DNA of 34,839 nucleotides from an uncultured Lachnospiraceae bacterium. Its GTDB lineage: Bacteria; Bacillota; Clostridia; Lachnospirales; Lachnospiraceae. Positions 4,595 to 34,839 of this stretch are shown here, one piece after another. The position numbers were made by a program, and so were the translations under genes. The stretch lies in contig CAMNTM010000010.1 of assembly GCA_946558465.1 (NCBI GenBank), positions 65,574 through 100,412 on the forward strand, given 5' to 3'. Every line of letters starts with the position of its first letter. Position 1 is the stretch's first letter. The notes below the pieces were generated by a model. It searched no databases and was not told the DNA's origin. It saw only the letters and a program-made list of their open reading frames with translations.

Positions 4595-6077
4595 TCAAAA
4601 CTGAAAATAAATAAACTCTTGAGACGCAAATCCGAACCCCTGTATTAACAATATTCCCAAAATGCTATATACCAATCCCAAATACATAGTCCACCTGAAA
4701 ACCACATGCTGTTTCCCCAATTCATCTAGAATATTGATTCTGCACCTTAAAAAGCTTACTAAACAAAGTCCCTCCATCGCAATACATAAAAACAAAAATT
4801 CTCCTTGTGCTAATCCCAATGTATATAATTCTCCATTCCAGAAAATTTCCACATTAAACTCTGAAAACATCTGCTTTAACACCAAACCTACATCATTCAA
4901 ACTTGCCGCACGAAAGAAAATCCACGCAATATCTACTAATGTAAAAGTTATTATCACCCTAAAAAGCTTATGTGCAAACGTATTCGTATCTATATGCAAT
5001 AATTTAATGACGGATTCCTTAACAGGAGCAAGTACTTCTCCCAAAATCTGATAGACCCCATGAACCCCCCCAGGCCACATATGTCCAATTTGCCCCATGC
5101 CATAAACCACTGACTAAAAATGTAATCATTAGATTCCTATATTTTTTAACTCTGGAACATCTGCTTCCACCAAGTGGAATATACACATAATCTTTTAACC
5201 ATGAACTTAAAGAAATATGCCAGCGTCTCCAAAACTCTTTAATAGATTGTGAAAAGTACGGCTGTCTGAAATTTGTCATAAGGTGGAATCCCATAACTCT
5301 GGCCGCACCAATTGCAATATCCGAATACCCACAAAAGTCACAATAAACTTGTACTGCAAAAAATATTGTTGCTACAACTATCTCAAATCCTGTATATTGT
5401 TCTAAATTATTATATACTTGATTAACAATAATTGCCGTACGGTCTGCTATCACTATCTTCTCAAATAATCCCCAAAGCATCAATAATAATCCACTTTTCA
5501 CTCTTTGATAATCAAAATAATGCTCTTCATAAAATTGAGATATTAAGTTCTCTGAACGTTCTATTGGTCCAGCTACTAACTGTGGAAAAAAGGTAACAAA
5601 CAACGCATATTTTCCCAAATGCCTTTCCACTTTAAAATTTTCTTTTCTATAAACATCAATTGTATAACTCAAAGCCTGAAAAGTATAAAATGATATCCCT
5701 ACCGGAAGCAGAACATCAAAAGAAGGGGTTAACAATTTTAAATTTATCATTCCCAATAAATAATTTATACTATCAATTACAAAATCAAAGTACTTAAAGA
5801 AAAACAAAATTGTTAAATTTGATACAACAGAAAATATTGCAAACATTTTCTTCTTCAACAATTTTTTCTCTTTATCTGCTTTACTTATACCTATACCGCT
5901 CAAATAAGTAATTATAATTGTTGTTAAAATCAGAATCACAAATTTGGGATTCCAGCTCATATAGAAATATAGGCTTGCAGCTAAAAGCCATATCCACCGA
6001 TACTTATGTGTTATTAAAAAATATCCCAAGACCACAATGGGAAAGAAAATCATAAAATGAATCGAATTAAATACCAT
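4595..6077 (-). pseudogene. MBOAT family O-acyltransferase (AlgI/DltB-like), frameshifted in a G7 tract
   Basis: The first 338 or so codons encode a typical MBOAT protein: FFPIVVLGYF helix, VGISFYTFQALSYTIDVYR, FFPQLVAGPIER, CGYSDIAIGAARVMG, FRQPYFSQSIKEFWRRWHIS, and SGLWHG with the catalytic His at residue 327. Right after this, a run of seven G (plus-strand C7 at 5065-5071) shifts the frame, and the original frame ends at 352 residues. Removing one G restores VAWGVHGVYQILGE and a continuous protein of about 493 residues ending at 4595, the normal family length. MBOATs transfer acyl (often acetyl) groups across the membrane to a glycan with an SGNH partner, which is the next gene. A good Shine-Dalgarno (AAGGA) precedes 6077. 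The truncated form keeps the His but loses about 30% of the protein, including several helices. Confidence 0.85.
5065..5071 (-). other. G7 homopolymer at the frameshift of the MBOAT gene
   Basis: A run of seven G on the coding strand lies in the Trp-Gly-Gly codons just after the catalytic-His motif. Six G give the full-length MBOAT protein and seven give the truncated one. Tracts of this kind are classic slipped-strand sites. Confidence 0.75.
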
Positions 6078-6138: not shown

Positions 6139-7635
6139 TTATTTTTGATTATATCGTATACTTTTAAAAAACTTGCTGCCTTCTATTACCGACAATGCAT
6201 AAGCAAATGATTCATCTTTTTTCATATAAAGTACAAGAAAATAGTAAACGGCACACAGCCCTATAGTACATCCTAAATACAGAAAAAAGCTAATATTAAA
6301 CCTATACTCTACTTGGAACAAATTACGAAAAACATATTCTGCTGGAATAAACAATATACAAAGAGCCAAATATTTCCAATAATGGCCTTTTAACGTCGAA
6401 ATTGAAGAATCTAATTTTGTTTTTATCAAATACTGTTCTATTATTACTATTATGATTTCAATACATGCAGTTGAGATAATGGCTGTTTCTGCCCTTAATA
6501 TACCCAGAAAAGCTAAAACACTTTTTATTACTAAATTTCCAATACCAAAAATCAAATAAAGCTTTGTCAGCCACGCTTCTTTTCCATAAATAAACAGAAC
6601 CTGATTAGCAGAAGTATAATCAATCATCCACACAAGCATCCTAAGTGCAAACAATCCAAAAGTAATACCTGCCCCTAAATATTTGCCTCCTCCATATATA
6701 AACATGATAGACTTGGACAAAACAAAAAAGCCAAAACATACGGGGATAGAAATCATATAAAATAATCCTGACGACTTCCTGAGCAAAAGCCGATAATCTT
6801 CTTTTCTATTTTCTCCCAAATACAAAGACAATCTTGGAATGGTTACTAATACAATTGCATTAATGACATTTGTTAAAATATTAATAATAGCTTGACTAAA
6901 AGTATAATAACTCACAAAAACGCCTTCAGAAAATATTGACAAGAACAACTTATCAAGATACGTATATAACATTCCCGCATTCATAAGCACAAACATAACA
7001 ACGAGCGCTTTCAGTCTCTTTTTCACATCCTCTACACTTACTTTTATAAATTTTACACGAGATTTTATATATATAAAACTAACCAGATAATTCAGCAGCT
7101 GAATACACGATACAATAATTGCATATTTCAGAATATCGCCAGGATGTCTCACAATAAACAAAATTAGAATAATATTAAGTAATCGAATAAGAACTGTCTT
7201 TATAAGAATAAAACTATAATTTTCAAAGGCTTCATTCATATATTCCACCCAAAACATACATGCTAAAATTTGCAATGAAAGCACCACATATATGGGGAGA
7301 ATTTTGGGCTCTATTACATTAAAAACATACATAAAATAAAAAACTAATACTGTAACTGTACTTCCAGCCCCAACACAAAACAGAACAGAAAACATCTTCG
7401 ATATCTTATCTGGATTATTCCTTACCCTGCTTACCTCTCTGATACCATAATTATAAATACCACAACCTGCGAATGGAATAAGAAATGATACTACAGACAA
7501 TGCCTTATTATACTCCCCATACAAATACACATCCAGGGTACGCGCCAAATATGGTCCTGTGATGATAGGAATAATAATATTAAAAATATTGAGCAACATT
7601 TTCCAGACGGTATTCTTTTTAATTGACTTTCCCAT
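6139..7635 (-). CDS. wzx: Oligosaccharide flippase (Wzx/RfbX-like)
   Basis: This 498-residue protein has about 12 to 14 hydrophobic segments. Its start, NTVWKMLLNIFNIIIPIITGPYLARTL, closely matches the opening of Gram-positive repeat-unit flippases (conserved 'iP..t.pyla' with the basic stretch before it), and it has the following GIYNYGIREVSRVR region. Such proteins carry the undecaprenyl-PP-linked repeat from the inner to the outer leaflet for polymerisation. Length and topology are normal for the family. AAGGA lies just upstream of the ATG at 7635, and LicD ends 20 nt before, so the genes are probably co-transcribed. I treat this as the main flippase of the locus. The protein at 558-1754 is a shorter, more divergent second candidate. 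Confidence 0.88.
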   Translation of the reverse strand: MGKSIKKNTVWKMLLNIFNIIIPIITGPYLARTLDVYLYGEYNKALSVVSFLIPFAGCGIYNYGIREVSRVRNNPDKISKMFSVLFCVGAGSTVTVLVFYFMYVFNVIEPKILPIYVVLSLQILACMFWVEYMNEAFENYSFILIKTVLIRLLNIILILFIVRHPGDILKYAIIVSCIQLLNYLVSFIYIKSRVKFIKVSVEDVKKRLKALVVMFVLMNAGMLYTYLDKLFLSIFSEGVFVSYYTFSQAIINILTNVINAIVLVTIPRLSLYLGENRKEDYRLLLRKSSGLFYMISIPVCFGFFVLSKSIMFIYGGGKYLGAGITFGLFALRMLVWMIDYTSANQVLFIYGKEAWLTKLYLIFGIGNLVIKSVLAFLGILRAETAIISTACIEIIIVIIEQYLIKTKLDSSISTLKGHYWKYLALCILFIPAEYVFRNLFQVEYRFNISFFLYLGCTIGLCAVYYFLVLYMKKDESFAYALSVIEGSKFFKSIRYNQK

Positions 7636-7655: not shown

Positions 7656-8465
7656 TCAGTCTTTCAAAAAAAAGGTGTAGCCGTGAGTAAGTTTTCTTTC
7701 TTTCTCTGGAGGAAGCTCCATATAATTTCCATACCACTTTTTTAAACATTCCTCATATTTTTCCGGAGCACAAAACTCAATTCCTTCAAAAGAAATCTCG
7801 GTTCCTTTCGCAAACCATGCTTTTTTTACAATCCATCTTACTTCCGGTCCCCACGGTTCTCCCGCAAACTTTGATTCATCATACTTATATTTCGTCGATA
7901 ATGTTTCTATCTTTTTGCATATTCTTTTTTGGCCATATAAACGTAAAACAGGAATGCAGATTTTTTTTTGCAATGCTTTCGATTTATTAGAACTTCCTGG
8001 ATTTTTATAAACTAACAAACTATTTAATTTTTTGAGCCATAAATGTTTTCTGAGCATTTCTGATAATTCTTCTGATTCCGGTCTTCCGTCAAGCGGAAAA
8101 ATGTCAATGTATACTCCTAAATCATTAATATATTCCTGCCTTACCACATCATGGGTCATTCCCGTATTTGTATTAATAAGCATTGCATATGGTCCAAGAA
8201 AATGTTTACAATTATCCATGTGTACTATCTTAATATACGAGTGATTATCTTCCAACATCAATTTTAAAAAGTTTTCATAATCGTTTCTTGGCATTACTAC
8301 ATCAATGTCATCATCCCAAGGTATATATCCTTTATGACGCACTGCTCCCAGAAGCGTTCCATAGGCCAAGTAATATCTTAAATTATTTTCCATACATTTT
8401 TTCTTGAAATACACTAGCATTTCAATCTGAATTTTTCGTACATCCTCAATCGTCAATATCTTCAT
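7656..8465 (-). CDS. licD: LicD-family phosphotransferase (phosphocholine transfer to glycan)
   Basis: This 269-residue protein matches LicD throughout. RYYLAYGTLLGAVRHKGYIPWD leads into the DDDID metal-binding motif at about residues 51-55 (nucleotidyltransferase-like fold), followed by a GVYIDIFPLDG block. LicD enzymes move phosphocholine (or sometimes another phosphodiester group such as ribitol-, glycerol- or ethanolamine-phosphate) from a CDP-linked donor to a sugar hydroxyl. Because this window also has a choline transporter and LicA/LicC-type enzymes, CDP-choline is the most likely donor. It sits inside the glycan operon about 14 kb downstream of the lic genes, between the polymerase-like gene and the flippase, which suggests decoration of the lipid-linked repeat before export. 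Substrate specificity cannot be read from sequence. Confidence 0.9.
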   Translation of the reverse strand: MKILTIEDVRKIQIEMLVYFKKKCMENNLRYYLAYGTLLGAVRHKGYIPWDDDIDVVMPRNDYENFLKLMLEDNHSYIKIVHMDNCKHFLGPYAMLINTNTGMTHDVVRQEYINDLGVYIDIFPLDGRPESEELSEMLRKHLWLKKLNSLLVYKNPGSSNKSKALQKKICIPVLRLYGQKRICKKIETLSTKYKYDESKFAGEPWGPEVRWIVKKAWFAKGTEISFEGIEFCAPEKYEECLKKWYGNYMELPPEKERKLTHGYTFFLKD

Positions 8466-8492: not shown

Positions 8493-9878
8493 TTAAAAAG
8501 TCCCCTGATTATAAACACGCTTTTTTTTTAATGCTGGTGCTACTACTATCCACACTACTAAATGCATAATTTCCTGATGGGGAGAATAATTTGAACCAAG
8601 CATCATCTGCAGGCCACTGGCAAGCAGAAAAGCTAAAAACATCATACTTTCCAAACTTCCCACCCTTTCCTTAAGCGCCATAATACCCAAAATACACCAT
8701 AATACAAAAAGACTTATTCCCGCAAGCAAACCACCAGAATATGCAAGCTGTAAAAATGAGTTATGTGCATAACACCACTTGGGCTCGCTGTAATATTCTT
8801 TTTTGACCAATCGATTTTCTTTGCGATGTCCGATGATTCCTATATTCTTAATATAATCTTTCCAAATATCTACACGTCCAGAAGTAAAACTGGCCTCTCC
8901 CTTAACTCCTTTTCCCATTCTCGTAAAAATCCGTTCAGACATATCTTCGACATCAACCTCACTGACATCTCCTTTTTTACCATTCCCACCTGGAGTGTAT
9001 AAAGGTGTTGTCACAGTATAGCTATTACCAAATAAGTTTTCTTCTATTTGTAAAACAACATTTGTCCCTTTCGTAAACAAAAAGAAAATCAAAAAATAAA
9101 AAATGCAAGATAAAATTACCATACTGCCTAATTTGAGCACATTATTTTTTACACTCTTTATATTTTTAAATAAATAAAACATATAAACTATAAATATCAA
9201 TACCATACTTAACATCCCGGTTCTGGCAGCCGAATAAAAACACAATATAAGTGATATCACAGAAAATACCATGTATTTAAAACATTTTGTCCCCTCTTTT
9301 TTCTCCAGCAAATATAATTGCGTTATCAATACAATTGACAGAAAATTGCTAAGTGCATTTGGATTGCCAAATATGGAACAATATTGTGCATTAAGAATTG
9401 GAGCTATAAAAAAAGCAACTATCAATACAATACAAAATACCTTTGATATAGCTTCACTTATCTCCATATATAACCTTTCTCTTTCTAAGCTGCTAAACAC
9501 CATAATAACAGTTGGAATAATCACAAAAAATATCACACTGTAGACAATATATCCCGTTGTTTTAGTAATAATACCTGTAACCAAAAATGAACACGCAATA
9601 ATATATACAGGGCATATAAATATTTTATTATATTCCTGTATCTCCAGAGCTTCGGGTATGGCAAAAATCAATACTATTCCAAGCAACATTGTAAAAAGTA
9701 TTATTTTTACCATAAAGCTTAAGACAAATAAATAAGAGATAAGAATTTGTATCAAAAACAATAATACTAAAATAGTTTTAAAAAGTTTTTTTCGTTTCTG
9801 CTCCGAAATCACCCTATTTCTTATTCCAATGACAAAATTTAAAATTTTTGATGTTATTTCTTGTTGAAGTATAATCAT
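8493..9878 (-). CDS. O-antigen ligase/polymerase family membrane protein
   Basis: This 461-residue protein has about 10 to 11 membrane segments and one large external loop (residues ~285-375). The loop includes SFTSGRVDIWKDYIKNIGIIGHR and a YAHNSFLQLAYSGGL motif. The combination of 'R...W......i...p..G.G' and 'HN..L' marks the Wzy_C/WaaL-type O-antigen ligase domain family, which includes both polymerases and ligases. GAGGAG lies 9 nt before the ATG at 9878, and the stop of the upstream gene is 6 nt away. A second, unrelated polymerase-like protein is the neighbour at 9885-11378, so one of the two probably polymerises repeats while the other may polymerise a second glycan or transfer it to an acceptor. 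Which is which cannot be decided here. Confidence 0.78.
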   Translation of the reverse strand: MIILQQEITSKILNFVIGIRNRVISEQKRKKLFKTILVLLFLIQILISYLFVLSFMVKIILFTMLLGIVLIFAIPEALEIQEYNKIFICPVYIIACSFLVTGIITKTTGYIVYSVIFFVIIPTVIMVFSSLERERLYMEISEAISKVFCIVLIVAFFIAPILNAQYCSIFGNPNALSNFLSIVLITQLYLLEKKEGTKCFKYMVFSVISLILCFYSAARTGMLSMVLIFIVYMFYLFKNIKSVKNNVLKLGSMVILSCIFYFLIFFLFTKGTNVVLQIEENLFGNSYTVTTPLYTPGGNGKKGDVSEVDVEDMSERIFTRMGKGVKGEASFTSGRVDIWKDYIKNIGIIGHRKENRLVKKEYYSEPKWCYAHNSFLQLAYSGGLLAGISLFVLWCILGIMALKERVGSLESMMFLAFLLASGLQMMLGSNYSPHQEIMHLVVWIVVAPALKKKRVYNQGTF

Positions 9879-9884
9879 ACTAAT

Positions 9885-11378
9885 CTACTCCTCATATTTT
9901 TCAGAATATAATTTTAATTTTTTAAATATTTTTTGCAAGCCTTTACACCTGCTCAAAATAAATCCACCAAAATAGCACCCCGCGATACATGCCCAAAACT
10001 GCACTGTTACTATAAATGTAAGCCAACCGGTTGCTTCCGCCCGTGGAATCAAGAAAATACTTGTTAAAGCTAAAAGTACAATCGTAGTCAAAAAAGTTCT
10101 ATTTCCAAACCAATAAACAAAATATATCAGCAATATACCTATTATTAACCCGAATATCAGAACACCCACATATCCATAATCAACAAAAGTCTCTAAGAGA
10201 TAAGATGAACCCCAACCTCTTCCGTTTAAATAACTATCTCTTAAAGATACATAGGATAAATGATGAGATAAATTATGACTATACTGCGCATTTTCCAAAC
10301 AATTTCCCACTGGAAGCGCTTCCGTCCCCCAAATTTTCTGTCCTATTGTCCCATAATATATATAATCAACAATTCCCCCAAATGTATAAGGAGATATATG
10401 CAGCCGCAAACTTCCCACATATCCATATGCCGCTTGAATCACATTAAAGGTAACACCTTGAGAATAAAAAAAATCTACTATATATTTAAAAGGATTTATT
10501 AAACCTATAGAATGTCCTCCTCTAATGTAAGCATACGCAGTCATAAACATAAGCACAAATGGAGTCGCCACGCTTATTAAAATTTTTTCTATCTTTCCCA
10601 GCCATTTTTCTCTATTTTCTACAGCATCTCTTAATAAATAATAGACCAAAATAAACAGACTGTTTAACATAAGTGGATTTCTCACACCAATAATCAATGC
10701 AGGAATTGCTGATAATTCATACAATGCCAATGGCATAAATGCCCTTCTTTTTCTTGGACAAGTCGAGAGAAAAACACACAAACTTATTTTCATAAATGAC
10801 GCAAAAGTATGAAACAGCCCCGGAAGCTGGCTTTCGAACTCGGAATAATAAGATAAATACCCTTTTCCAGATGCAAAAATTAAAGGTTCTATTTCCTGTA
10901 ACAAAAAAAACGGCAACGAAATATAAAACACTAACATAGAAACAACTTGAAGATGTTCTTTAAATCCCTGCCCAGTAACTTTAACTTTTTTCTTTCTACG
11001 AACCTGCAGCATTTTCTTATGTATAATAACAGCAAAATATCCGCCCAAAAAAATTGTGTATAAACCAATTGATACCAGCCATAATGCAAACCAAATATAT
11101 TCATCTGCATCAGTTACTGCTCTCCACCATATCTCTCCTCTTAACATTCCAATCACAGGACGAGACATCAAAAAAGTAAAATAAGTAACATTAAATAAAA
11201 AATATATAAACCTTTCGGCATAATCTTCAAAAGAAAACAAAATATTATGCACCATAACAAGTAACATTCCACAAGTAAACAGATTAAACCTGCCCGCTTT
11301 GTATGAAATAAGCTGTATACTTATACCCATAAATAAAAAAATAAATTTCAAATATCTGAAATATTTTTTTTCAATCAC
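9885..11378 (-). CDS. wzy: O-antigen polysaccharide polymerase Wzy-like
   Basis: This is a protein of about 497 residues with 10 or more membrane segments and a loop rich in aromatic residues (about 330-410). It has a C-terminal SSYLLETFVDYGYVGVLIFGLIIG segment like that of Wzy-type polymerases. I place the start at the GTG at 11378 rather than at an upstream ATG at 11423: AAGGAG lies 10 nt before the GTG and the upstream gene stops at 11393, whereas the longer form would overlap it with no Shine-Dalgarno. The expected role is joining lipid-linked repeats on the outer face of the membrane. Wzy proteins vary greatly, so this rests on topology, context and short motifs. Confidence 0.72.
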   Translation of the reverse strand: MIEKKYFRYLKFIFLFMGISIQLISYKAGRFNLFTCGMLLVMVHNILFSFEDYAERFIYFLFNVTYFTFLMSRPVIGMLRGEIWWRAVTDADEYIWFALWLVSIGLYTIFLGGYFAVIIHKKMLQVRRKKKVKVTGQGFKEHLQVVSMLVFYISLPFFLLQEIEPLIFASGKGYLSYYSEFESQLPGLFHTFASFMKISLCVFLSTCPRKRRAFMPLALYELSAIPALIIGVRNPLMLNSLFILVYYLLRDAVENREKWLGKIEKILISVATPFVLMFMTAYAYIRGGHSIGLINPFKYIVDFFYSQGVTFNVIQAAYGYVGSLRLHISPYTFGGIVDYIYYGTIGQKIWGTEALPVGNCLENAQYSHNLSHHLSYVSLRDSYLNGRGWGSSYLLETFVDYGYVGVLIFGLIIGILLIYFVYWFGNRTFLTTIVLLALTSIFLIPRAEATGWLTFIVTVQFWACIAGCYFGGFILSRCKGLQKIFKKLKLYSEKYEE

Positions 11379-11392
11379 AAACTTTTCACTCC

Positions 11393-11923
11393 TTAAAGAA
11401 ATGTAGAGCCACATTGTGCACAATGACCATTTCTATCAAGCTTATACCCACATTTACACACAGTTCCTACCCGTTTTGCCGGATTTCCAACTACCAGCGC
11501 ATGAGGCGGCACATCTTTGGTAACAACACTTCCTGCACCAACCATAGCATATTCTCCAATTGTTATTCCACAGACAATTGTTGCATTTGCCCCAATAGAA
11601 GCTCCCTTTTTAACCACTGTCTTATATACTTCCCACTCTTCTGAAAAAGCTCTGGGATAAAAATCATTCGTAAAAGTCATAGAAGGACCCAAAAAGACAT
11701 CGTCCTCTATAATAACACCATGGTAAACATTTACATTATTTTGCACCTTAACATTATCTCCCAAACTAACATCACTATCTATATAAACATTCTTGCTAAT
11801 TATACAATTTTTTCCGATATGAGCATTTTCTCGAATTTGAACCTGGTTCCATATTTTTGTGCCTTCTCCAATTACAGCTTTCTCAGATACCTCCGCTGTT
11901 GGATGAATGTACATATCCTTCAT
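11393..11923 (-). CDS. Left-handed beta-helix acetyltransferase, WbpD-like (second copy)
   Basis: This 176-residue hexapeptide-repeat protein has repeats from [13 protein letters not shown] through [19 protein letters not shown] and [30 protein letters not shown], then GNPAKRVG. The CoA/UDP-sugar-binding core is intact and the length is normal. At the C-terminus there is a small Cys cluster (CKCGY...CAQC) resembling a zinc knuckle, also seen in the copy at 15166-15756. The family 3-N-acetylates UDP-sugar uronates (WbpD/WlbB) or related amino sugars. AGAGG before the ATG at 11923 supports that start. It sits between a GT4 gene and the polymerase. Two such enzymes in one locus suggest two different acetylated amino sugars or two steps, but the substrate is not known. 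Confidence 0.82.
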
Positions 11924-22615: not shown

Positions 22616-22638
22616 GCAGGGCGGAAAATCCACCCCGC
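22616..22638 (-). terminator. Rho-independent terminator after the choline unit
   Basis: A GC-rich hairpin with arms of about 10 nt and a loop of about three nt (two internal mismatches) is followed on the minus strand by TTTTATG. It lies about 130 nt behind the BCCT stop codon and would separate the choline genes from the glycan operon. Confidence 0.7.
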
Positions 22639-22767: not shown

Positions 22768-24315
22768 CTAATCCGCAATATCACTATCAATCTCATCCAA
22801 ATATTTCTTCGCATCTTTAATAAAACTTGCAACAATCAGGAGAAGCACTACACCAATCGGAAATGCTGCAATAATACTTACCGATTGTAGATTACTCATT
22901 GAACTATCTGAAAAAACAAGCGCAATAGGTAGCAAAATCAATAAAACACACCACATCAATTGAATTATTTTATTTGGATTTTCATTAACCTTCAACCTAT
23001 GATAACTATAACAAGATGCCGTCAGGGCAATCGAATCAAATGATGTTGCATAAAACGCCACCATGGTAACAAGTAAAAGTATAAACACAAAAGGAGCACA
23101 CGGCAATGTGTGTATAATAGCTATAATTACATCATAGAGATCCCCCGATTGTTCATAAATCGCCAAAAAATCTACTTTTCCGGATACTTGTACTCCAAGC
23201 GAGTAATTACCCAAAATAATAAAACTAACAATTGTTGAGCCCACACCAAATATATAGCCTCCAAATATTGTCTGACGAACGGTTCGCCCTCTGGAAATGT
23301 TTCCAATGAAAAATGGAGCTGCTATACACCATACCATCCAATAAGCCCAATAAAAAATAGTCCATGTCTGTGGAAAGGAAGTTATACGCTCAGGGTCTGT
23401 ATATGTTGCCATCACAAAAAAATTTTGGACCAACCTGCCAAATGCTGAAAAACCTGTCTCAACAATATACCTGACCTCTCCTCCAAAAAACATCACAAAT
23501 ACAAGCAGACCAAAAAACAGATAGACACAAGACTTGGCTAAAATACTGATACCTCTAAATCCATGCAAAAGAGAATATGTATAGATAATACAGGTTACAA
23601 TCAAGATTACAATTGTGATTATAGCCCGACTAAACTCTATATGAAATAATTCACCAATGATACTTGCCATCAACGGAGTAGCCAGACTGAATGTGGTTGC
23701 AGTACCTGCTATCAGCGCAAAAATAGCCAGAAGATCTATCATTTTTCCTCCAATTCCATCTGTATGTTTCCCCAAAATCGGGCGGCATGCTTCCGAATAC
23801 TTCTGGCGCTCTTTTTTTCTCACATGCAACATAAACCCAAAGGCTACTGCAAGAACCAAATAAAATCCCCAAGGAATCAAACTCCAGTGGAAAATCGGAT
23901 ATACACTTGCCCAATCTTGAATACTCCCTAATTCTGCAATATAAGGATCTGTCGCATATAAAACCCACTCTGAAAAAGAATAGAATAAAATATCCGCCGC
24001 AAGTCCTGCTGTAAACATCATAGAACCCCATGCAAAAAAAGAATATTTCGGTTTTTCGTCTTTTCCTCCAAGTACTATATTTCCATATCTTGAACTGGCA
24101 ATATAAATCGAAAGCAAAAATATACCTAATCCAATTATCAGATAATAACTTCCAAAAGTATCACCAAGCACAAATCGAATCCGACTCAATACCTCATTAG
24201 ACTGCTGAGGCATACAAAAAAACAAAACACATAAAACAACAATAATTCCTAATGGCAGCAAAGTGATTATCCAATCAATTCTACCGCCCTCAAATTCTAC
24301 CTGTTTCTTTTTCAT
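22768..24315 (-). CDS. BCCT-family transporter (choline or betaine uptake)
   Basis: This 515-residue protein has about 12 membrane segments and BCCT landmarks: FFAWGSMMFTAGLAADILFYSFSEW, PIFHWSLIPWGFY, a short basic loop (VRKKERQKY), and WTIFYWAYWMVWCIAAPFFIGNISRGRTVRQ, the aromatic-rich core of the substrate site. Members import choline, betaine or carnitine using an ion gradient. AGGAGG lies 9 nt before the ATG, and the LicC-like gene ends 2 nt before it. With LicA- and LicC-like genes in the same unit, choline is the likely cargo. It takes the place of the LicB permease of classic lic1 operons. The C-terminal tail is short and lacks a long osmosensing extension, which fits nutrient uptake rather than stress response. 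Confidence 0.88.
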   Translation of the reverse strand: MKKKQVEFEGGRIDWIITLLPLGIIVVLCVLFFCMPQQSNEVLSRIRFVLGDTFGSYYLIIGLGIFLLSIYIASSRYGNIVLGGKDEKPKYSFFAWGSMMFTAGLAADILFYSFSEWVLYATDPYIAELGSIQDWASVYPIFHWSLIPWGFYLVLAVAFGFMLHVRKKERQKYSEACRPILGKHTDGIGGKMIDLLAIFALIAGTATTFSLATPLMASIIGELFHIEFSRAIITIVILIVTCIIYTYSLLHGFRGISILAKSCVYLFFGLLVFVMFFGGEVRYIVETGFSAFGRLVQNFFVMATYTDPERITSFPQTWTIFYWAYWMVWCIAAPFFIGNISRGRTVRQTIFGGYIFGVGSTIVSFIILGNYSLGVQVSGKVDFLAIYEQSGDLYDVIIAIIHTLPCAPFVFILLLVTMVAFYATSFDSIALTASCYSYHRLKVNENPNKIIQLMWCVLLILLPIALVFSDSSMSNLQSVSIIAAFPIGVVLLLIVASFIKDAKKYLDEIDSDIAD

Positions 24316-24317
24316 GG

Positions 24318-25043
24318 CTATTGTCCTCCTACTTTAAGATAAATTTGATAACTCTCATCTATTTCTGCTAAATCCGACAGAGCATCTATTTCTATAACAT
24401 CATTCTGTTCCATCTTACGAATTTCAAGCTGATATTCTTCTGGATAACAAAAAAGTGCAATATCATCCCAATATATTTGAGTATTTCCTTTTTCTTCAAA
24501 TTCATATTCAAGATGTCTTTTCAATTTCTCCCCATCCGCTTTCGTCCATCTGGAAATACTAAAAAGTTGCCATCCTTTTTTCCCACCAGTCCGACTACAC
24601 CCTTTTATAATATGATCCTCAACCGTAAGTAACCACTCCCTTGTTTCTTTCTCAATCCAGACGCAGTTATAACCAGATTTTTCAAATTCCGGTAATAAAA
24701 TTTGTGGATTGTTTATAATCTGATCACCATCAATAATCATAACATCATCTATATATTCTCTTGCCACATAGAGAGATGATATATTATTACAACTGGCATA
24801 ATATGGGTTTTCAATCAGCTTCACCTCTGAATACTCCTGCTCTAATACTTGGAACTGTTCTTTTAAATACCCTACCACAACTATAATTTCTTTGATTCCA
24901 TTCATTCTGAGTCCTTGAATTATAGTATCTATCATACGTACTCCGTGAACTTTCACTAATGGTTTTGGCGTATTCAACGTAACGGGAAACATTCTTTTTC
25001 CAATACCTGCCGCCATAATTATGGCTCTTTGTACTTTATACAT
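24318..25043 (-). CDS. licC: LicC-like CTP:phosphocholine cytidylyltransferase
   Basis: This 241-residue nucleotidyltransferase starts RAIIMAAGIGKRMFPVTLNTPKPLV, the signature loop with Gly-x-Gly-x-Arg and a Lys. It continues with IVVVGYLKEQF, NPYYASCNNISSLYVARE, DGDQI (metal-binding Asp), TREWLL and IYWDDIALF, ending EIDALSDLAEID. These blocks line up one after another with the pneumococcal LicC I know from memory, including the GYLKEQF and YWD motifs. It makes CDP-choline from CTP and phosphocholine. The ATG follows the fusion gene's stop by a single nucleotide. A second LicC-like domain lies in the protein just upstream, so the two may be redundant or act on different substrates. Confidence 0.87.
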   Translation of the reverse strand: MYKVQRAIIMAAGIGKRMFPVTLNTPKPLVKVHGVRMIDTIIQGLRMNGIKEIIVVVGYLKEQFQVLEQEYSEVKLIENPYYASCNNISSLYVAREYIDDVMIIDGDQIINNPQILLPEFEKSGYNCVWIEKETREWLLTVEDHIIKGCSRTGGKKGWQLFSISRWTKADGEKLKRHLEYEFEEKGNTQIYWDDIALFCYPEEYQLEIRKMEQNDVIEIDALSDLAEIDESYQIYLKVGGQ

Positions 25044-25044
25044 A

Positions 25045-26796
25045 CTACCACTCGCCTTCCTTTAATTCCTGCTTCACTATCTTGTAAAATTCTTTTGCAT
25101 ACCGATATTGCTTTAAAGAATATTCACCAAATTCAACCCCACATATCCGTTTGTATTCACACCAATTGCTCCATAAAAATCCACATATTGCAATATAACA
25201 ATATATCTTCAATTTCACCCTTAACGATACGCCGCCATCAAAATAGCACTCTATCAATCTATCAATCTGGCACTTATCATACATAGCATAAATCGCAAAC
25301 ATTGCAATATCCACATGCACATCCTGCATTCCGGCATATTCCCAATCAATCAAATAAATATGTTCCTTTTCCATTAAAAAATTATCATAAACTGCATCAA
25401 TATGTGTCAATGAGACTTGTCTCGGTTGTCTGTCAACATATTCCTTCAGCTCATACATTTTTTCTTTTGTTTCCGCATAGTCTCTATATATCGAAGATTC
25501 ACCACCCCATAAAGACTCATAATACTCTATCTGTTCGAACAAATCAAAATAATGTTCTACCTGGATATTTAATTCATGGAATTTTTTCAAATACTGCATG
25601 CACTTTTTTACATCTTCAAAATCCTTACTATTACATGTTCTAGCTTCTTCAATATATTTGGTAATTTTATATCCATTTTCCGGAGAAATGAAGATCACTG
25701 GATCCGTTATATTTTTTCCATTTAACTGTCTATACACAGAATATTCATTTCTCCGATTAATCATCTGGCCGGTACCTTCTCCCGGTACTCTCATAATATA
25801 ACGCTGATCCCTGCATTGAAATTGAAATGACCGGTTAGTCATACCCTTCTTCAACGAACGAATTCCTATAATCTCACTTTTTCTACAATGAAGCACCTCA
25901 CAAATCAACCGGATAATAGCTGACTGCAAATGATTCGAATCACTGTCTAATTCCCGTAACTGCTCATAAGTATTAATCTCATGAACCTCTTCTCCATTCA
26001 CTTTTCTAGGTTTTGTCATCATACGTTTCTTATCAAACAACACCTCTTCCCAAAATGACTGGTCATATTCTTTTTTACTCGCAAAATCTTGAATTTTATA
26101 CTTCAAAACTTTAGCTTCTGCACGTAAAACATAAGCTATTCCAATCATGACATTTCCTTTTTCTTCTTTTTTTACTCTGACCAATTCTTTTTTTCTATTA
26201 ATTCGTATACAGCTTCTTTCATCTTCTTCATCTGTAACCATATACCATGAATACCATTCATGAACAGAAAATGGATTTTTTTCGCACCAAATATCACAGG
26301 GAATAATATAAGTATTTCCTAATTTATGCGAAACACATTTTAACGAATGCAAATTGTTTTTAGTGTTATATTCTTTGTTAAACACTAAATTCACATTATA
26401 TTTATCAATTAAATATTCATATTGTTCCTTCATAAAGCCAACAACAATGTCTATCTCTTCAATTCCAACCTCATGTAATTGGCGAATAGTTCTTTCAATC
26501 AGAGATTCTCCTTTTATTTCTAAAAGCCCTTTTGGCACTTCAGCATTAATCGGCACCATTCGCATCCCAAATCCTGCTGCAAGAATTACTGCATTTTGAG
26601 GCCTTTTTTCCTTCATCTCCATAAACGCCTTATCTGTCAGCTGTCTTTTCGAATCCAAATATCCTTTTTCCGATAAGTTCTGCAAAGAATGATTCACCTT
26701 TCCCAAAGAATAACCTGTGCATACTGCAAGTTCCCTTTGATTCATATCTTGTTTTTTTACAATGACGTTCATTAAATCATATTCCTGTATGTTCAT
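25045..26796 (-). CDS. Winged-helix / LicC-like / choline-kinase (LicA-like) fusion protein
   Basis: This is a three-part protein of about 583 residues. Residues 1-60 form a MarR-like winged helix (NQRELAVCTGYSLGKVNHSL recognition region, then LSEKGYL). Residues 67-290 are a nucleotidyltransferase with NAVILAAGFGMRMVPI, VPKGLLEIKG, GFMKEQYEYL and PCDIW. Residues 305-583 are a choline-kinase/APH-type domain with KGMTNRSF, the Brenner motif LTHIDAVYDNFL (His465, Asp467, Asn472) and LIDWEYAG. The start is the ATG at 26796, since AAGGAG lies 9 nt upstream. A longer frame from 26859 would begin inside the promoter. The kinase domain should phosphorylate choline, and the middle domain may add CMP. 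It is the first gene of the choline unit, so the winged helix may control its own operon. Confidence 0.87.
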   Translation of the reverse strand: MNIQEYDLMNVIVKKQDMNQRELAVCTGYSLGKVNHSLQNLSEKGYLDSKRQLTDKAFMEMKEKRPQNAVILAAGFGMRMVPINAEVPKGLLEIKGESLIERTIRQLHEVGIEEIDIVVGFMKEQYEYLIDKYNVNLVFNKEYNTKNNLHSLKCVSHKLGNTYIIPCDIWCEKNPFSVHEWYSWYMVTDEEDERSCIRINRKKELVRVKKEEKGNVMIGIAYVLRAEAKVLKYKIQDFASKKEYDQSFWEEVLFDKKRMMTKPRKVNGEEVHEINTYEQLRELDSDSNHLQSAIIRLICEVLHCRKSEIIGIRSLKKGMTNRSFQFQCRDQRYIMRVPGEGTGQMINRRNEYSVYRQLNGKNITDPVIFISPENGYKITKYIEEARTCNSKDFEDVKKCMQYLKKFHELNIQVEHYFDLFEQIEYYESLWGGESSIYRDYAETKEKMYELKEYVDRQPRQVSLTHIDAVYDNFLMEKEHIYLIDWEYAGMQDVHVDIAMFAIYAMYDKCQIDRLIECYFDGGVSLRVKLKIYCYIAICGFLWSNWCEYKRICGVEFGEYSLKQYRYAKEFYKIVKQELKEGEW

Positions 26797-26809
26797 GTTC
26801 AATCGCTCC

Positions 26810-26823
26810 TTCATTTTTATGAA
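26810..26823 (-). promoter_or_regulatory. Palindrome between promoter and start: candidate operator
   Basis: A perfect TTCAT-N4-ATGAA palindrome lies at the expected transcription start, between the -10 box and the Shine-Dalgarno of the winged-helix fusion gene. A related GAACATGAACAT direct repeat overlaps the start codon. This is a plausible binding site for the protein's own winged helix, by inference only. Confidence 0.35.
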
Positions 26824-26830
26824 CATTTTA

Positions 26831-26859: not shown

Positions 26860-26899
26860 GCTCTATTTCAATTTTTATTTTCTTTAACATAAAGAAAGA

Positions 26900-26941
26900 G
26901 TTGTTACTCCATAGATGAGTGCTCATCTATGGAATAACAAC
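26900..26941 (-). terminator. Strong hairpin terminator after the lysozyme gene
   Basis: The stem is 20 bp with one mismatch and a 2-nt loop (GTTGTTA... paired with ...TAACAAC), about 11 nt past the lysozyme stop codon. On the minus strand the sequence after it is T-rich (TCTTTCTTTATG). It separates the lysozyme gene from the choline promoter. Confidence 0.72.
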
Positions 26942-26951
26942 CCTTTACTCC

Positions 26952-28799
26952 TTATCTTAAACTTCCATCACTTTCAAAATAATAATATTTTCCATCAATA
27001 TATTGCCGCCCCGTGAGCATAACTCCGGCATTATTCAGGTAATATCTTTTCCCTCCAGTTTGCAGCCAGCCTTTTACCATAGCCCCTGAACTACTTAGAT
27101 AATACCATTTGCCACTATCCCTAAACCAGCCGGTTACCATAGCTCCTGAACTATTCAGATAATATCGGCTTCTCCCGATATTTTGCCAGCCCGTCTGCAT
27201 CACTCCTGAACTATTCATATAGTACCATGTCGTACCCCAAAGTTTTTGCCAACCTGTAAGCATAACCCCTGAGCTATTCAGATAATACCATGCGCCTCCA
27301 ATTTTTTGCCAGCCTGTCTGCATCACTCCCGAACCATTCAGATAATACCAACTACTTCCAACTCTCTGCCAGCCTGTCTGCATCACTCCCGTACTGTTCA
27401 GGTAATACCAGCCGCTTCCAAGCTTTAACCAGCCTTTTACCATAGCTCCCGAACTACTCAGATAATACCATTTGCCACTATCCCTAAACCAGCTGTCGGC
27501 TACCATAGCCCCCGAACCACTCAGATAATATCGATTTCTCCCGATATCCTGCCAGCCTGTCTGCATCACTCCTGTATTATCCATATAATACCACAAACCA
27601 TAAATCTCCTGCCAGCCTGTTGTCATATATCCTCGTTTATCAAACCAATACCACTTACCAGATATCCGTTCCCATTTATTCGCAGGATATCCTCCTCCGT
27701 TATATTGATACCATTTTCCTATACTGTCTTCCATCCATCGTCCGCCCGATTTTGTATATCCTGATACAGCTTCAGTTCTCGGGGTTACAATTTTTGTATA
27801 ATCTTTATACCCAAAATCAATATCCACATTCCCAGAAATCCCATTCACGCGACTCTCGGAACTGCTTTGCCAAATTCCCCTAGTAATGGCAGTATCATAA
27901 TAATAGTTGTACCTCGCAATCCAAAATTCTTCTCCTGATAATGCATTCATATTTATGTAATTCCTGTACCAATTCTCATTAGTATACAGCATTGGCGTAT
28001 AGCCTGCTGCCCGAATTTCATTACAAAATGCCTTTATAATCTCCGCAAGTTTATCTTTTCCCAAATTCTGCTGCACTGCATCTTCTATATCAATAACGAC
28101 TGGATACGATACAAGATATCCACTCATATGGTCAATAGTAAACTGCGCCTCCTTGATTGCTGTCTCCACAGTTGTAGCTTTACTGTAATAATATACTCCT
28201 ACAGGAATACCCGCTGCTTTTGCTTCTCGCATATTCTTTTCGTAATATGGGTCCAAATTTTGATAATTAACAGTATAGCCCAACCTCACAAATGCAAATT
28301 GTATGCCATCTTGTTTCACGGACTGCCAATTAATATCTCCCTGCCACTTTGATACGTCGACTCCTTTCAGTGTCCCATTTTCATATCTGCTGTACTTGCT
28401 TTGATCTATCCAGTATCCATTAGACGTGAAATAATGCCAAGAGCCTTGAACCTTACGCCACCCTGTGGCCATATATCCATCTGCCTCAAACCAATAATAA
28501 TTGCCATCTGTATGTTTATACCATCTACTTCTCAAATATTGTCCACTGCTGTCATAATACCGCCATCCGACAGTATTTTGAACCCATCCTACTGCTCTGG
28601 CAGCTCTAAACGGTCCATCAGAATACGCGTCAAAGTCTTCTCCCTCTATTTCTTTCTCTAACACTTCTTTCCCCAAAGATGAACCCGCTGTTTCTGTCTC
28701 CTCTTCTGCATAAGCCGGAAAGGATACAAAAATCCAAACCGATAATACAGCTATTATTACCCATATTAATCTTTGAAATACTCTTTCCTGTCTTTTCAT
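26952..28799 (-). CDS. Secreted GH25 lysozyme with choline-binding-type repeats
   Basis: This 615-residue protein has a signal peptide (residues 1-31, basic start, hydrophobic core, PAYA before EEE). After a short linker come about three repeats (residues ~70-135), then a GH25 muramidase domain (~145-335) with KGVDVSKWQGDINW (Asp148), VVIDIED (Asp237, Glu239) and GNVDIDFGY. A tail of about a dozen 20-residue aromatic/Gly repeats of the GWYYLNSSGVMQTGW type (about 350-615) follows. GH25 enzymes cut the MurNAc-GlcNAc bond. The repeats have the Trp/Tyr/Gly pattern of choline-binding modules, so the enzyme probably attaches to phosphocholine-bearing glycan. AGGAG lies 7 nt before the ATG. No LPXTG motif is seen. 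Specific choline binding is inferred, since related repeats may bind other ligands. Confidence 0.92.
   Translation of the reverse strand: MKRQERVFQRLIWVIIAVLSVWIFVSFPAYAEEETETAGSSLGKEVLEKEIEGEDFDAYSDGPFRAARAVGWVQNTVGWRYYDSSGQYLRSRWYKHTDGNYYWFEADGYMATGWRKVQGSWHYFTSNGYWIDQSKYSRYENGTLKGVDVSKWQGDINWQSVKQDGIQFAFVRLGYTVNYQNLDPYYEKNMREAKAAGIPVGVYYYSKATTVETAIKEAQFTIDHMSGYLVSYPVVIDIEDAVQQNLGKDKLAEIIKAFCNEIRAAGYTPMLYTNENWYRNYINMNALSGEEFWIARYNYYYDTAITRGIWQSSSESRVNGISGNVDIDFGYKDYTKIVTPRTEAVSGYTKSGGRWMEDSIGKWYQYNGGGYPANKWERISGKWYWFDKRGYMTTGWQEIYGLWYYMDNTGVMQTGWQDIGRNRYYLSGSGAMVADSWFRDSGKWYYLSSSGAMVKGWLKLGSGWYYLNSTGVMQTGWQRVGSSWYYLNGSGVMQTGWQKIGGAWYYLNSSGVMLTGWQKLWGTTWYYMNSSGVMQTGWQNIGRSRYYLNSSGAMVTGWFRDSGKWYYLSSSGAMVKGWLQTGGKRYYLNNAGVMLTGRQYIDGKYYYFESDGSLR
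26985..27620 (-). repeat. Tandem 60 to 66-bp coding repeats in the lysozyme tail
   Basis: About ten related units encode the aromatic/Gly repeats of the lysozyme. A core around GCCAGCCTGTCTGCATCACT is shared exactly with the repeats at the right edge, so the two genes could recombine. Confidence 0.75.
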
Positions 28800-32390: not shown

Positions 32391-33311
32391 TTATTTATAT
32401 AATTTCATAGGATATACTCCACTACTAATTAGATTAGAAATCTCTCTCTTTACCCTTTCTTTATCTTCCTTATATGTAACACCAAACCACCTATCCCTTG
32501 ATTTTAACACCTCAACTTCCACTTTACCTTCTTGCAACAACTCTCCTATAATTTTAGGCAATAAATACTCTGTCGTTTTATCATCTTCTCTTAAATTTTT
32601 CAAAAATTCAACAAATCCTTCTTCCAAAACATCTATAAATCTTGCCGGCATCCCCCACATATTCATAGATACTACCGAATCTAAATTCAACTCAATTTTC
32701 TCCCCTTCTTTCTCTGCTCCTGCTATATTTCCATTCTTTTTAATCTTATAAGTCTCTTCAATTTCAGTCAACATATGGTTTTCATTTACTTTACAGATTC
32801 CTCTGGTCACCGTACCATTTTCACTTAATGTATTTCTTAAAACAAACCCCACCATGCCAATACAAATCTTATCCTTTTTTTTCCACTCTCCTTCTAAATA
32901 ATAATACATCATCCTATAGGCTTCCCGTCCATAATAATCATCCGCATTAATCACTACAAACGGCTCACATACTACATCTTTACAACAGAGAATCGCTTGT
33001 CCCGTTCCCCATGGTTTACTTCTTCCCTCTAGTTTGCCATCATATAAATTAGGAATTCCTGATAACTCTTGATAGACATAGTTTGTCTCTATTATCTTTT
33101 CTATCCTTTTTCCAATTACATCTCTGAAATCTTTTTCCAATTCTTTTCTAATTACAAATACAACCTTATTGAATCCAGCTTTTATTGCATCATATATAGA
33201 ATAATCCATAATTACCTCTCCGTTCGGACCCACCGGAGTTAATTGTTTAATTCCACTGCCAAATCTACTGCCAATTCCTGCGGCCATAATCACCAATGTT
33301 GCTTTTTCCAT
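32391..33311 (-). CDS. Nucleotidyltransferase family protein, substrate unknown
   Basis: This 306-residue protein starts TLVIMAAGIGSRFGSGIKQLTPVGPNG, the nucleotide-binding loop of sugar-phosphate nucleotidyltransferases (Gly-x-Gly-x-Arg, then a Lys-Gln-Leu). It has SKPWGTGQAILCC and FVVINADDYYG (metal-binding Asp-Asp) and later LLPKIIGELL. It differs from both LicC-like domains in the window, having the KQL and NADDYYG forms rather than PKPL and DGDQI. AAGGAG lies 10 nt before the ATG. It should activate a phosphorylated sugar or alcohol with an NTP, but I cannot name the substrate. It is separated from the glycan genes by the dehydratase promoter, and its upstream side is transposon debris, so its own promoter may have been rearranged. 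Confidence 0.75.
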   Translation of the reverse strand: MEKATLVIMAAGIGSRFGSGIKQLTPVGPNGEVIMDYSIYDAIKAGFNKVVFVIRKELEKDFRDVIGKRIEKIIETNYVYQELSGIPNLYDGKLEGRSKPWGTGQAILCCKDVVCEPFVVINADDYYGREAYRMMYYYLEGEWKKKDKICIGMVGFVLRNTLSENGTVTRGICKVNENHMLTEIEETYKIKKNGNIAGAEKEGEKIELNLDSVVSMNMWGMPARFIDVLEEGFVEFLKNLREDDKTTEYLLPKIIGELLQEGKVEVEVLKSRDRWFGVTYKEDKERVKREISNLISSGVYPMKLYK

Positions 33312-34507: not shown

Positions 34508-34839
34508 TTATTTTCCGTTTACCATAGAACCACTGCTATCAAAATAGTATCGTCGACTCCCTATTGTCTGCCACCCGGTCAGCATCTCCCCACTTCCATT
34601 CAGATAATACCAATGGCCTTTTATCTGCAACCAGCCCGTCTGCATCACTCCGCTTCCATTCAGGTAATACCATTTGTTCCCTACTCTCTGCCACCCCGTC
34701 TGCATCACTCCATTTCCATTTAGGTAATACCATCTTCCTCCAACTCGCTGCCAGCCTGTCTGCATCACTCCGCTTCCATTCAGATAATACCATCTTCCTC
34801 CAACTCGCTGCCAGCCTGTCTGCATCACTCCGCTTCCAT
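34508..34839 (-). CDS. Choline-binding-repeat protein, C-terminal part (runs off right edge)
   Basis: The frame is open to the window edge, so the N-terminus and any catalytic domain are missing. The roughly 110 visible residues consist of five 20-residue repeats of the form GWQRVGGRWYYLNGSGVMQT, with conserved Trp, paired Tyr, Gly-Ser-Gly and Met-Gln-Thr-Gly, and a final degenerate repeat ending GSMVNGK. This is the cell-wall/choline-binding repeat type also found in the lysozyme at 26952-28799. The protein is probably a secreted wall hydrolase or adhesin. The apparent start at 34828 is only an in-frame GTG inside a repeat. The DNA repeats are nearly identical, so the copy number could vary. 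Confidence 0.85.
   Translation of the reverse strand, partial: GSGVMQTGWQRVGGRWYYLNGSGVMQTGWQRVGGRWYYLNGNGVMQTGWQRVGNKWYYLNGSGVMQTGWLQIKGHWYYLNGSGEMLTGWQTIGSRRYYFDSSGSMVNGK
34541..34839 (-). repeat. 60-bp tandem coding repeats
   Basis: At least five units with an exact 60-bp period. The last two visible units (34741-34800 and 34801-34839) are identical over the shared 39 bp. They encode the choline-binding repeats. Confidence 0.85.

Follow-up and report, generated by a model that had tools for sequence, protein, structure and literature searches.

A self-regulating choline kinase proposed for a phosphocholine locus

In a 34,839-nucleotide stretch of DNA (hereafter the window) from the 3.12 Mb genome of an uncultured bacterium of the gut-dwelling family Lachnospiraceae (assembly GCA_946558465.1, contig CAMNTM010000010.1, positions 65574-100412), a three-gene unit (22768-26796) with intergenic gaps of 1-2 bases encodes a fusion of a helix-turn-helix (HTH), a LicC-like domain and a choline kinase, followed by a standalone LicC and a BCCT transporter. 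We propose, with a probability that we put slightly below 60%, that this unit is part of a Lic-1-type phosphocholine pathway in which LicA is a NadR-like, self-regulating protein, and that the pathway is tied to a Wzx/Wzy surface polysaccharide. The gene content, the domains, a conserved inverted repeat at the start of the fusion gene, the association of this repeat with the HTH and the divergence of the fused LicC-like domain are read directly from the sequences; the substrates, the head group, the DNA binding, the repression and the ligand of the fused domain are what we infer from them.

In the proposed pathway, the BCCT transporter would bring choline in, the kinase domain of the fusion would phosphorylate it, the standalone LicC would produce CDP-choline (cytidine diphosphate choline), LicD would transfer phosphocholine to the polysaccharide repeat unit, and proteins with choline-binding repeats, the adjacent lysozyme among them, would dock on the phosphocholine of the glycan. 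Through its HTH the fusion would bind the inverted repeat, cover the start of its own operon and probably repress it, and a ligand of its middle domain would set whether the protein stays on the repeat or releases it.

An inverted repeat goes with the fused HTH

The counts given below are drawn from related genomes, many of which are metagenome bins. Within the HTH, residues Q20, R21, G32 and N35 are invariant and S30 and L31 nearly so (67 sequences). The leaders of the fusion genes carry an inverted repeat, GTTCA-N24/25-TGAAC, that is exact in 59 of 96 (51 of the 83 of the window's type and 8 of the 13 aromatic-keeping ones, two classes defined below); other spacers occur at two loci each at most, with the exception of a spacer of 0, seen in 13 loci and corresponding to the inner palindrome GTTCATGAAC. 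Over 200 dinucleotide shuffles of the 96 leaders, the exact repeat was found 0.045 times on average and once at most, with the caveat that the loci that yielded the pattern also served for its first count, and that these genes are related. In the window the repeat spans both the ribosome-binding site and the ATG at 26796. Beyond the two halves the leaders have only short pieces in common, and a -10-like hexamer (at most one mismatch) lies within 10 bases upstream in 42 of 75, against about 14 expected. Perfect short palindromes were also sought in the leaders and none is widely common. A first motif, TTCAYRAA, read as an in-frame N-terminal peptide, was rejected because its spacings are not divisible by three and some sites lie wholly upstream.

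With the HTH scored by a hidden Markov model trained on 30 of the same fusions, and the repeat search anchored at the HTH, 85 of the 89 HTH-bearing fusion genes have the repeat with no more than one mismatch (66 of them exactly); the corresponding figures are 3 of 110 for HTH-less genes (fusion, LicC and kinase) and 1 of 12 for fusions in which the HTH is absent or diverged. At the same threshold the repeat is found in 53 of 2000 random 220-base stretches of the same loci, true sites included. The Fisher p for the link is 1e-40, a value that overstates independence since kinship is uncorrected. The HTH-bearing genes in which the repeat is missing are L088, L105, L110 and L081, the last having a one-mismatch copy before the preceding LicC gene. 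Apart from the fusions, the HTH is found on two LicC-like proteins and on none of 17 stand-alone kinases; neither of these two LicC-like genes has a repeat within 200 bases, as scanned, although for L111 there is an exact copy some 170 bases ahead of the gene, partly beyond the scanned stretch. At other genes the repeat is rare (BCCT 1/75, LicB 0/10, LicD 1/23, choline-binding proteins 2/50), and the LicD match (L069) and one choline-binding match (L004) belong to divergent neighbours of a fusion gene. The window's own genome has two further matches and, because a reversed-pattern control matches as often (two), it gives no sign of a wider regulon.

On the strength of its conservation, we consider the repeat to be a candidate operator bound by the fused HTH. 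Class and phylum samples provided new loci, seven of the window's type, one of which (L156) was dropped as a near copy of L056; four of the remaining six have the repeat at one mismatch or fewer (L149 and L152 exactly, L153 and L157 with one mismatch). Several points weigh against an operator of this kind: besides the shared origin of pattern and counts and the uncorrected kinship, (i), two of the six new loci are without the repeat (L158 has two mismatches, L155 none of it) and (ii), it is lacking in the distant HTH-bearing relatives L160, L164 and L165. As a side observation, the distant fusions L164 and L165 carry a differently spaced repeat, GTTCA-N5-TGAAC, just before the gene.

The repeat could also be an RNA element, or the trace of a constraint on the N-terminal coding sequence, and we consider this improbable. 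On folding, the halves pair with each other in 72 of 85 loci when 3 flanking bases are included and in 59 of 85 with 12, placing the ribosome-binding site in the loop, which speaks against a protein-binding site; in TGAAT, the most frequent right-half variant (9/85), a G-U pair is kept. However, when the halves are kept and the rest is shuffled, pairing still occurs in 67/85 and 50/85, with energies (real vs shuffled) of -5.35 vs -5.27 and -7.28 vs -7.37 kcal/mol for 3 and 12 flanking bases. Because shuffled flanks pair about as often and with energies no weaker, nothing beyond the halves appears tuned for a hairpin; the pairing follows from the palindrome alone, and the fold test neither supports an RNA role nor counts against it. 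No Rfam match was found in the window. As for coding, many loci have a right half that overlaps the start codon and an Asn codon, but a spacing of 24 or 25 is not frame-locked, and in L004, L078, L084 and L095 the repeat precedes the coding region. A protein-binding site is favoured because the repeat goes with the HTH, being missing from 11 of the 12 fusions in which the HTH is absent or diverged.

The two LicC-like domains are unequal

According to PMC6697681, pneumococcal LicC relies on Asp105, on Asp192, on Glu216 as a metal residue and on an aromatic box. The standalone LicC of the window has the LicC residues at 105, 107, 136, 190, 192 and 216. From the alignment to 1jyk, we take Asp107 to be a metal ligand and Trp136 to be a member of the aromatic box. 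Trp136 is found in 82 of 83 standalone LicC open reading frames (ORFs), the remaining ORF ending at a contig end, and the residues of the window's protein (24318-25043) predict a LicC-type choline pocket.

The fused domain of the window has Pro at 105, Ile at the ungapped 136 position and Glu at 192; it lacks the choline-pocket set of LicC (Asp105, Trp136, Asp192) and has the metal-binding Asp107 and Glu216. Among 102 fusions, 83 are of the window's type, defined by Pro at 105 and no aromatic residue in the aligned 136 column, 14 keep Trp or Tyr at 136, and 5 fit neither rule. Within the window's type, Asp107 is kept in 83/83 and Glu216 in 95%, and Glu is found at 192 in all (rounded). Counted without gaps from the WY motif, position 136 (79 scored) is Val in 60, Ile in 7, Leu in 3, Trp in 5 and another residue in 4. 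A deletion of Trp136 in the fused domain was discarded as an alignment-gap artefact, this ungapped count giving a substitution, mostly by Val, Ile or Leu. In a maximum-likelihood (ML) tree of 112 domains, the 39 window-type domains included form one clade with L068, with support of 100/100 and a stem of 0.85 changes per site. The AlphaFold model of the fusion (mean predicted local distance difference test score 91, predicted TM score 0.72) has LicA and LicC structures as its best PDB matches, and LicC 1jyk is among the best structure matches of the fused domain (target TM 0.88). The partner genes of 285-290 amino acids, first taken for kinases or HTH-bearing LicC, are LicC-like proteins without an HTH.

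Both LicC-like domains could be taken to make CDP-choline, as would redundant CTP:phosphocholine cytidylyltransferases in a plain Lic-1 cluster. Pneumococcal LicC is indeed the best solved match for both domains, and Trp136 is kept in five Lactobacillaceae fused domains, a point against the divergence proposed here. This claim is not supported by our data, the fused domain belonging to a diverged clade, and we find such redundancy very improbable: positions 105, 136 and 192 differ together, the stem is long (0.85), and every genome of the window's type that was checked has an additional LicC with Trp or Tyr at 136. The last point rests on eight chosen window-type genomes without a directly adjacent LicC (G295-G302, a selection of such loci), where a LicC of this kind was found elsewhere or further along in 8/8; overall, another LicC candidate was found in 14/14 genomes or records checked (G295-G302, G305-G308, W02 and W03). 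In G303, whose fusion keeps Trp136, no other LicC candidate was found at E 1e-8. The residue changes suggest that, in the window's branch, the fused domain no longer serves as a CDP-choline synthase.

The fused LicC-like domain is most likely a ligand-sensing module, by analogy with the nucleotidyltransferase domain of NadR. The alternative is that it works as a nucleotidyltransferase on a second head group, the operon then making two activated groups, which we judge unlikely while taking it seriously. The domain retains catalytic and metal residues (Asp107, Glu216, Lys27 and the glycine motif), which counts against a sensor and would suit an active enzyme. It also has a mean column identity of 65% (34 sequences) and a frequent S-x-V-R-V-N-R-K signature at the choline-pocket strand, and in 6 of 80 loci a canonical-looking LicA kinase, a LicC and a LicB homologue stand beside the fusion, which gives it the look of an extra module. 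On the other hand, five loci of an order-wide sample (see below) have the kinase subfamily, LicC and BCCT without a fused domain, with the choline cage intact in 9/9 kinases, and neither a second transferase nor a substrate-making gene was identified. Between the two readings we favour the sensor because the HTH is found on the fusions and two LicC-like proteins and on 0/17 lone kinases.

Choline as the probable head group

Among solved sequences, the best matches of the whole fusion are LicC 1jyk (E 3.9e-28) and LicA 4r77 (1.5e-27), and the LicA-choline structure is the top Foldseek match of the kinase domain. Measured against the choline-holding residues of pneumococcal LicA, as given in PMC4364537, the aromatic cage is kept in the fusions: Tyr197 in 83/83, Trp251 in 81/83, Trp254 in 82/83 and Tyr268 in 81/83. 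With its PF01633 match, its structural likeness to LicA and this cage, the domain is predicted to be an active LicA-type choline kinase. Against this, it departs from LicA at the rim residue Glu213 (Tyr in 82/83), at Asn201 and at Trp205. Tyr at 213 is also found in 9/9 stand-alone kinases of the same subfamily, all with an intact choline cage. A second group of nine kinases, mostly adjoining LicB, has the LicA residues in 8/9.

The original prediction placed a BCCT protein where the usual LicB permease would be, and a LicB homologue does take the position of BCCT in some relatives. Of 80 fusion loci, 61 have BCCT, 8 have a LicB homologue, 1 has both and 10 have neither; the LicB probe, taken from L004, matches the solved LicB 7b0k at E 1.3e-33. 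The window's operon has BCCT and no LicB permease, a statement limited to this operon, no LicB search having been made elsewhere in the genome. The protein is over the cut-off for PF02028 and for the general model TIGR00842, and far below it for the curated choline-specific BetT, betaine and carnitine models. Its closest solved relative, the dimethylsulfoniopropionate transporter DddT, counts against choline as the substrate. We nevertheless propose that BCCT imports choline because BCCT and the LicB homologue alternate in related loci, which we regard as the best evidence.

A head group other than choline, such as ethanolamine or another amine, is highly improbable. The BCCT, LicD and kinase families all include members with other substrates, and the rim residue Glu213 is changed. 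But the quaternary-amine cage of the kinase is kept in 81-83 of 83, Trp136 in 82/83 standalone LicC ORFs, BCCT alternates with LicB, and 21 of 79 fusion loci have proteins with choline-binding-type repeats nearby (at least three repeats each, counted by regular expression).

The locus and its partners

The identified genes of the window (Table 1) are all on the minus strand, within a polysaccharide cluster that comprises a Wzy polymerase, a Wzy_C protein, LicD and a Wzx flippase. BCCT, a LicA-like kinase, two LicC-like domains, LicD and a lysozyme with choline-binding-type repeats had been predicted in a common orientation, and all are present as described. A second choline-binding-repeat protein had also been predicted; its repeats (PF01473, PF19127) are recognizable, but only its C-terminal piece lies in the window. 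The one-locus circuit of the original prediction holds for the three-gene unit with the lysozyme gene adjacent, LicD lying 14 kb off in the polysaccharide cluster. The HTH and the inverted repeat, the most unusual parts of the locus, were absent from that prediction.

Table 1. Features of the window discussed in the text (positions in the window)
Feature	Positions	Strand	Basis
Inverted repeat GTTCA-N24-TGAAC, candidate operator of the fused HTH	26791..26824	-	Exact match; covers leader, ribosome-binding site and start codon of the fusion gene
Whole fusion gene	ATG at 26796, stop at 25045	-	HTH_24 + NTP transferase + Choline_kinase
N-terminal winged HTH of the fusion (~residues 1-63)	26608..26796	-	PF13412 HTH_24, E 1.5e-5
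Fused LicC-paralogous nucleotidyltransferase domain, diverged choline pocket	25933..26607	-	NTP transferase; 1jyk among best structure matches
Choline kinase (LicA-like) domain of the fusion	25048..25932	-	PF01633, E 2.7e-19
Standalone LicC-like CTP:phosphocholine cytidylyltransferase (predicted)	24318..25043	-	1jyk, E 6.1e-33
BCCT transporter, proposed choline importer	22768..24315	-	PF02028, E 2.6e-123
Terminator-like stem-loop after BCCT	22616..22638	-	Pattern scan
Terminator-like 20-pair stem, boundary of lysozyme gene and fusion operon	26898..26943	-	Pattern scan
GH25 lysozyme with choline-binding-type repeats, just upstream of the fusion	26952..28799	-	PF01183, PF01473, PF19127
LicD-family transferase	7656..8465	-	PF04991, E 1.7e-46
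Wzx-type polysaccharide flippase adjoining LicD	6139..7635	-	PF01943
Wzy_C / O-antigen-ligase-type protein adjoining LicD	8493..9878	-	PF04932
Wzy O-antigen-type polymerase	9885..11423	-	PF14296
Second choline-binding-repeat protein, C-terminal fragment, open at window end	34508..34837	-	PF01473, PF19127

The terminator-like stems at 26898-26943 and 22616-22638 suggest that fusion, LicC and BCCT form an operon and that the lysozyme gene is a transcription unit of its own; an operon including the lysozyme gene was set aside, the first of these stems lying in between. Three other features of the window may be mentioned. An MBOAT O-acyltransferase frame (5019-6077) overlaps a second frame (4595-5110), by a frame break or a sequencing error; two pieces of IS66-type transposases (PF03050, PF13007; 33516-34323) lie between the cluster and the choline-binding-repeat fragment; and a 306-residue NTP-transferase-like protein (32391-33311) has weak matches to known models.

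LicD, which sits between Wzy and Wzx genes, is the sole match to its family in the 3.12 Mb genome. In an evenly drawn order sample of 295 genomes, 28 have a match to the fusion or to its kinase domain, and LicD is found in 19 of these 28 and in 57 of the other 267 (Fisher p 9e-7), Choline_bind_3 in 12/28 and 51/267 (p 0.007), in tests that ignore shared ancestry. The enrichment of choline-binding proteins is only modest, which weighs against our proposal. A LicD match was found in 25 of 26 hand-picked fusion genomes from the 80 loci, one of these matches being a fragment. In the window's genome Choline_bind_3 occurs on five contigs (C10, which holds the window, C11, C13, C23 and C28), some of the sites lying at contig ends, and both C10 sites are inside the window, which is a local concentration of choline-binding repeats. 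By their sequence, the repeats of the lysozyme and of the second protein may bind choline. The predicted decoration of the surface glycan with phosphocholine fits the comparative evidence (the recurring layout and the co-occurrence of LicD and choline-binding proteins), with choline as its probable head group.

Two side observations concern these partners. Five loci of the order sample (L096, L097, L100, L101 and L104) have a run of stand-alone kinase, LicC and BCCT; because only one of the five genomes has LicD, the CDP-choline made there may go to another transferase or into phosphatidylcholine. At L129, L131, L133 and L139, LicC-like genes unlinked to a fusion adjoin genes that match the window's choline-binding protein.

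The unit in related genomes

The closest relatives of the fusion protein, from a relatives scan and an ML tree, are Lachnospiraceae. The 80 fusion loci are the best 80 of at least 445 confirmed matches in a scan of public genomes. Comparing gene content across related genomes, a check named with the original prediction, gave the layout fusion-LicC-BCCT in 52 of the 80 loci, the fusion alone in 9, fusion-LicC-kinase-LicB in 6, fusion-BCCT in 5 and fusion-LicC in 4, the remaining four layouts being seen once each; genes up to 400 bases apart were joined, choline-binding and LicD genes were left out, and some short layouts end at contig ends. The unit is kept in many Bacillota and in two Treponemataceae loci, and Lachnospira eligens has all three genes. 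The same three genes, with LicD directly upstream, are found in the exopolysaccharide locus of the Lacticaseibacillus paracasei plasmid pE1-2 (NZ_CP110216). At L003, LicD-fusion-LicC-BCCT lies on a mobilizable L. paracasei plasmid beside insertion sequence (IS) elements, an indication that the pathway can move. On a Collinsella replicon (L004), six proteins matching the window's choline-binding protein surround a Trp-keeping fusion and LicB.

A search of the open-licence literature found no description of the fusion, of its regulation or of this gene set in Lachnospiraceae. It is tempting to speculate, at slightly less than even odds, that the fusions form an apparently undescribed, widespread family that joins an HTH, a LicC-derived domain and a choline kinase in one chain, convergent with NadR; the middle domain of the window's branch would have ceded CDP-choline synthesis to become a sensor or a second-head-group synthase, and an operator at the gene's own start would control the decoration.

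Relation to known systems

With the Lic-1 pathway (LicA, LicB, LicC and LicD) of Haemophilus and pneumococcus, the locus shares a choline kinase, a phosphocholine cytidylyltransferase, LicD and choline-binding proteins. It differs in having BCCT for LicB, a LicA whose chain also includes an HTH and a diverged LicC-like domain, and a conserved inverted repeat where the operon begins. On bacterial surfaces, phosphocholine is a mimic of host molecules and an anchor for wall enzymes, and it is best known in respiratory pathogens and oral streptococci. Its gene set recurs in many gut-derived Bacillota, and if the fusion is a self-regulating enzyme, this would explain how such bacteria could couple surface phosphocholine to choline supply. 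In the L. paracasei pE1-2 locus, LicD is adjacent to the unit, on a mobilizable plasmid with IS elements, whereas the LicD of the window is 14 kb away.

The 14 fusions with the same layout and Trp or Tyr at 136 (e.g. L004, L078, L084 and L091-L094), several with an HTH, retain the choline-pocket aromatic that the window's type lacks, and the exact repeat is found in 8 of the 13 scored. Because no other LicC was found in the genome of L078 or on the replicon of L004, the fused domain can be the enzyme there. PntC, the 2-aminoethylphosphonate cytidylyltransferase treated in PMC6697681, is likewise a LicC paralogue with an altered pocket, one form of which is fused to a partner enzyme; the partner in the window's fusion is a choline kinase, and no phosphonate gene was recognised in the window among the ORFs scanned for one, which were not all of them. 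The diverged fused domain poses a precise question, sensor or new head group.

We also draw a likeness in layout to the trifunctional NadR of Enterobacterales, which, according to PMC12421817, joins an HTH, an NMN (nicotinamide mononucleotide) adenylyltransferase and a kinase in this order in one chain, with ATP and NAD bound by the nucleotidyltransferase domain. A sensing role of the middle domain of the fusion would follow by analogy. The folds and substrates are different, the fusion being built of LicC- and LicA-like domains, and the likeness is one of layout only, with no homology claimed. If our proposal is true, the fusion would be a second, convergent case of the NadR layout.

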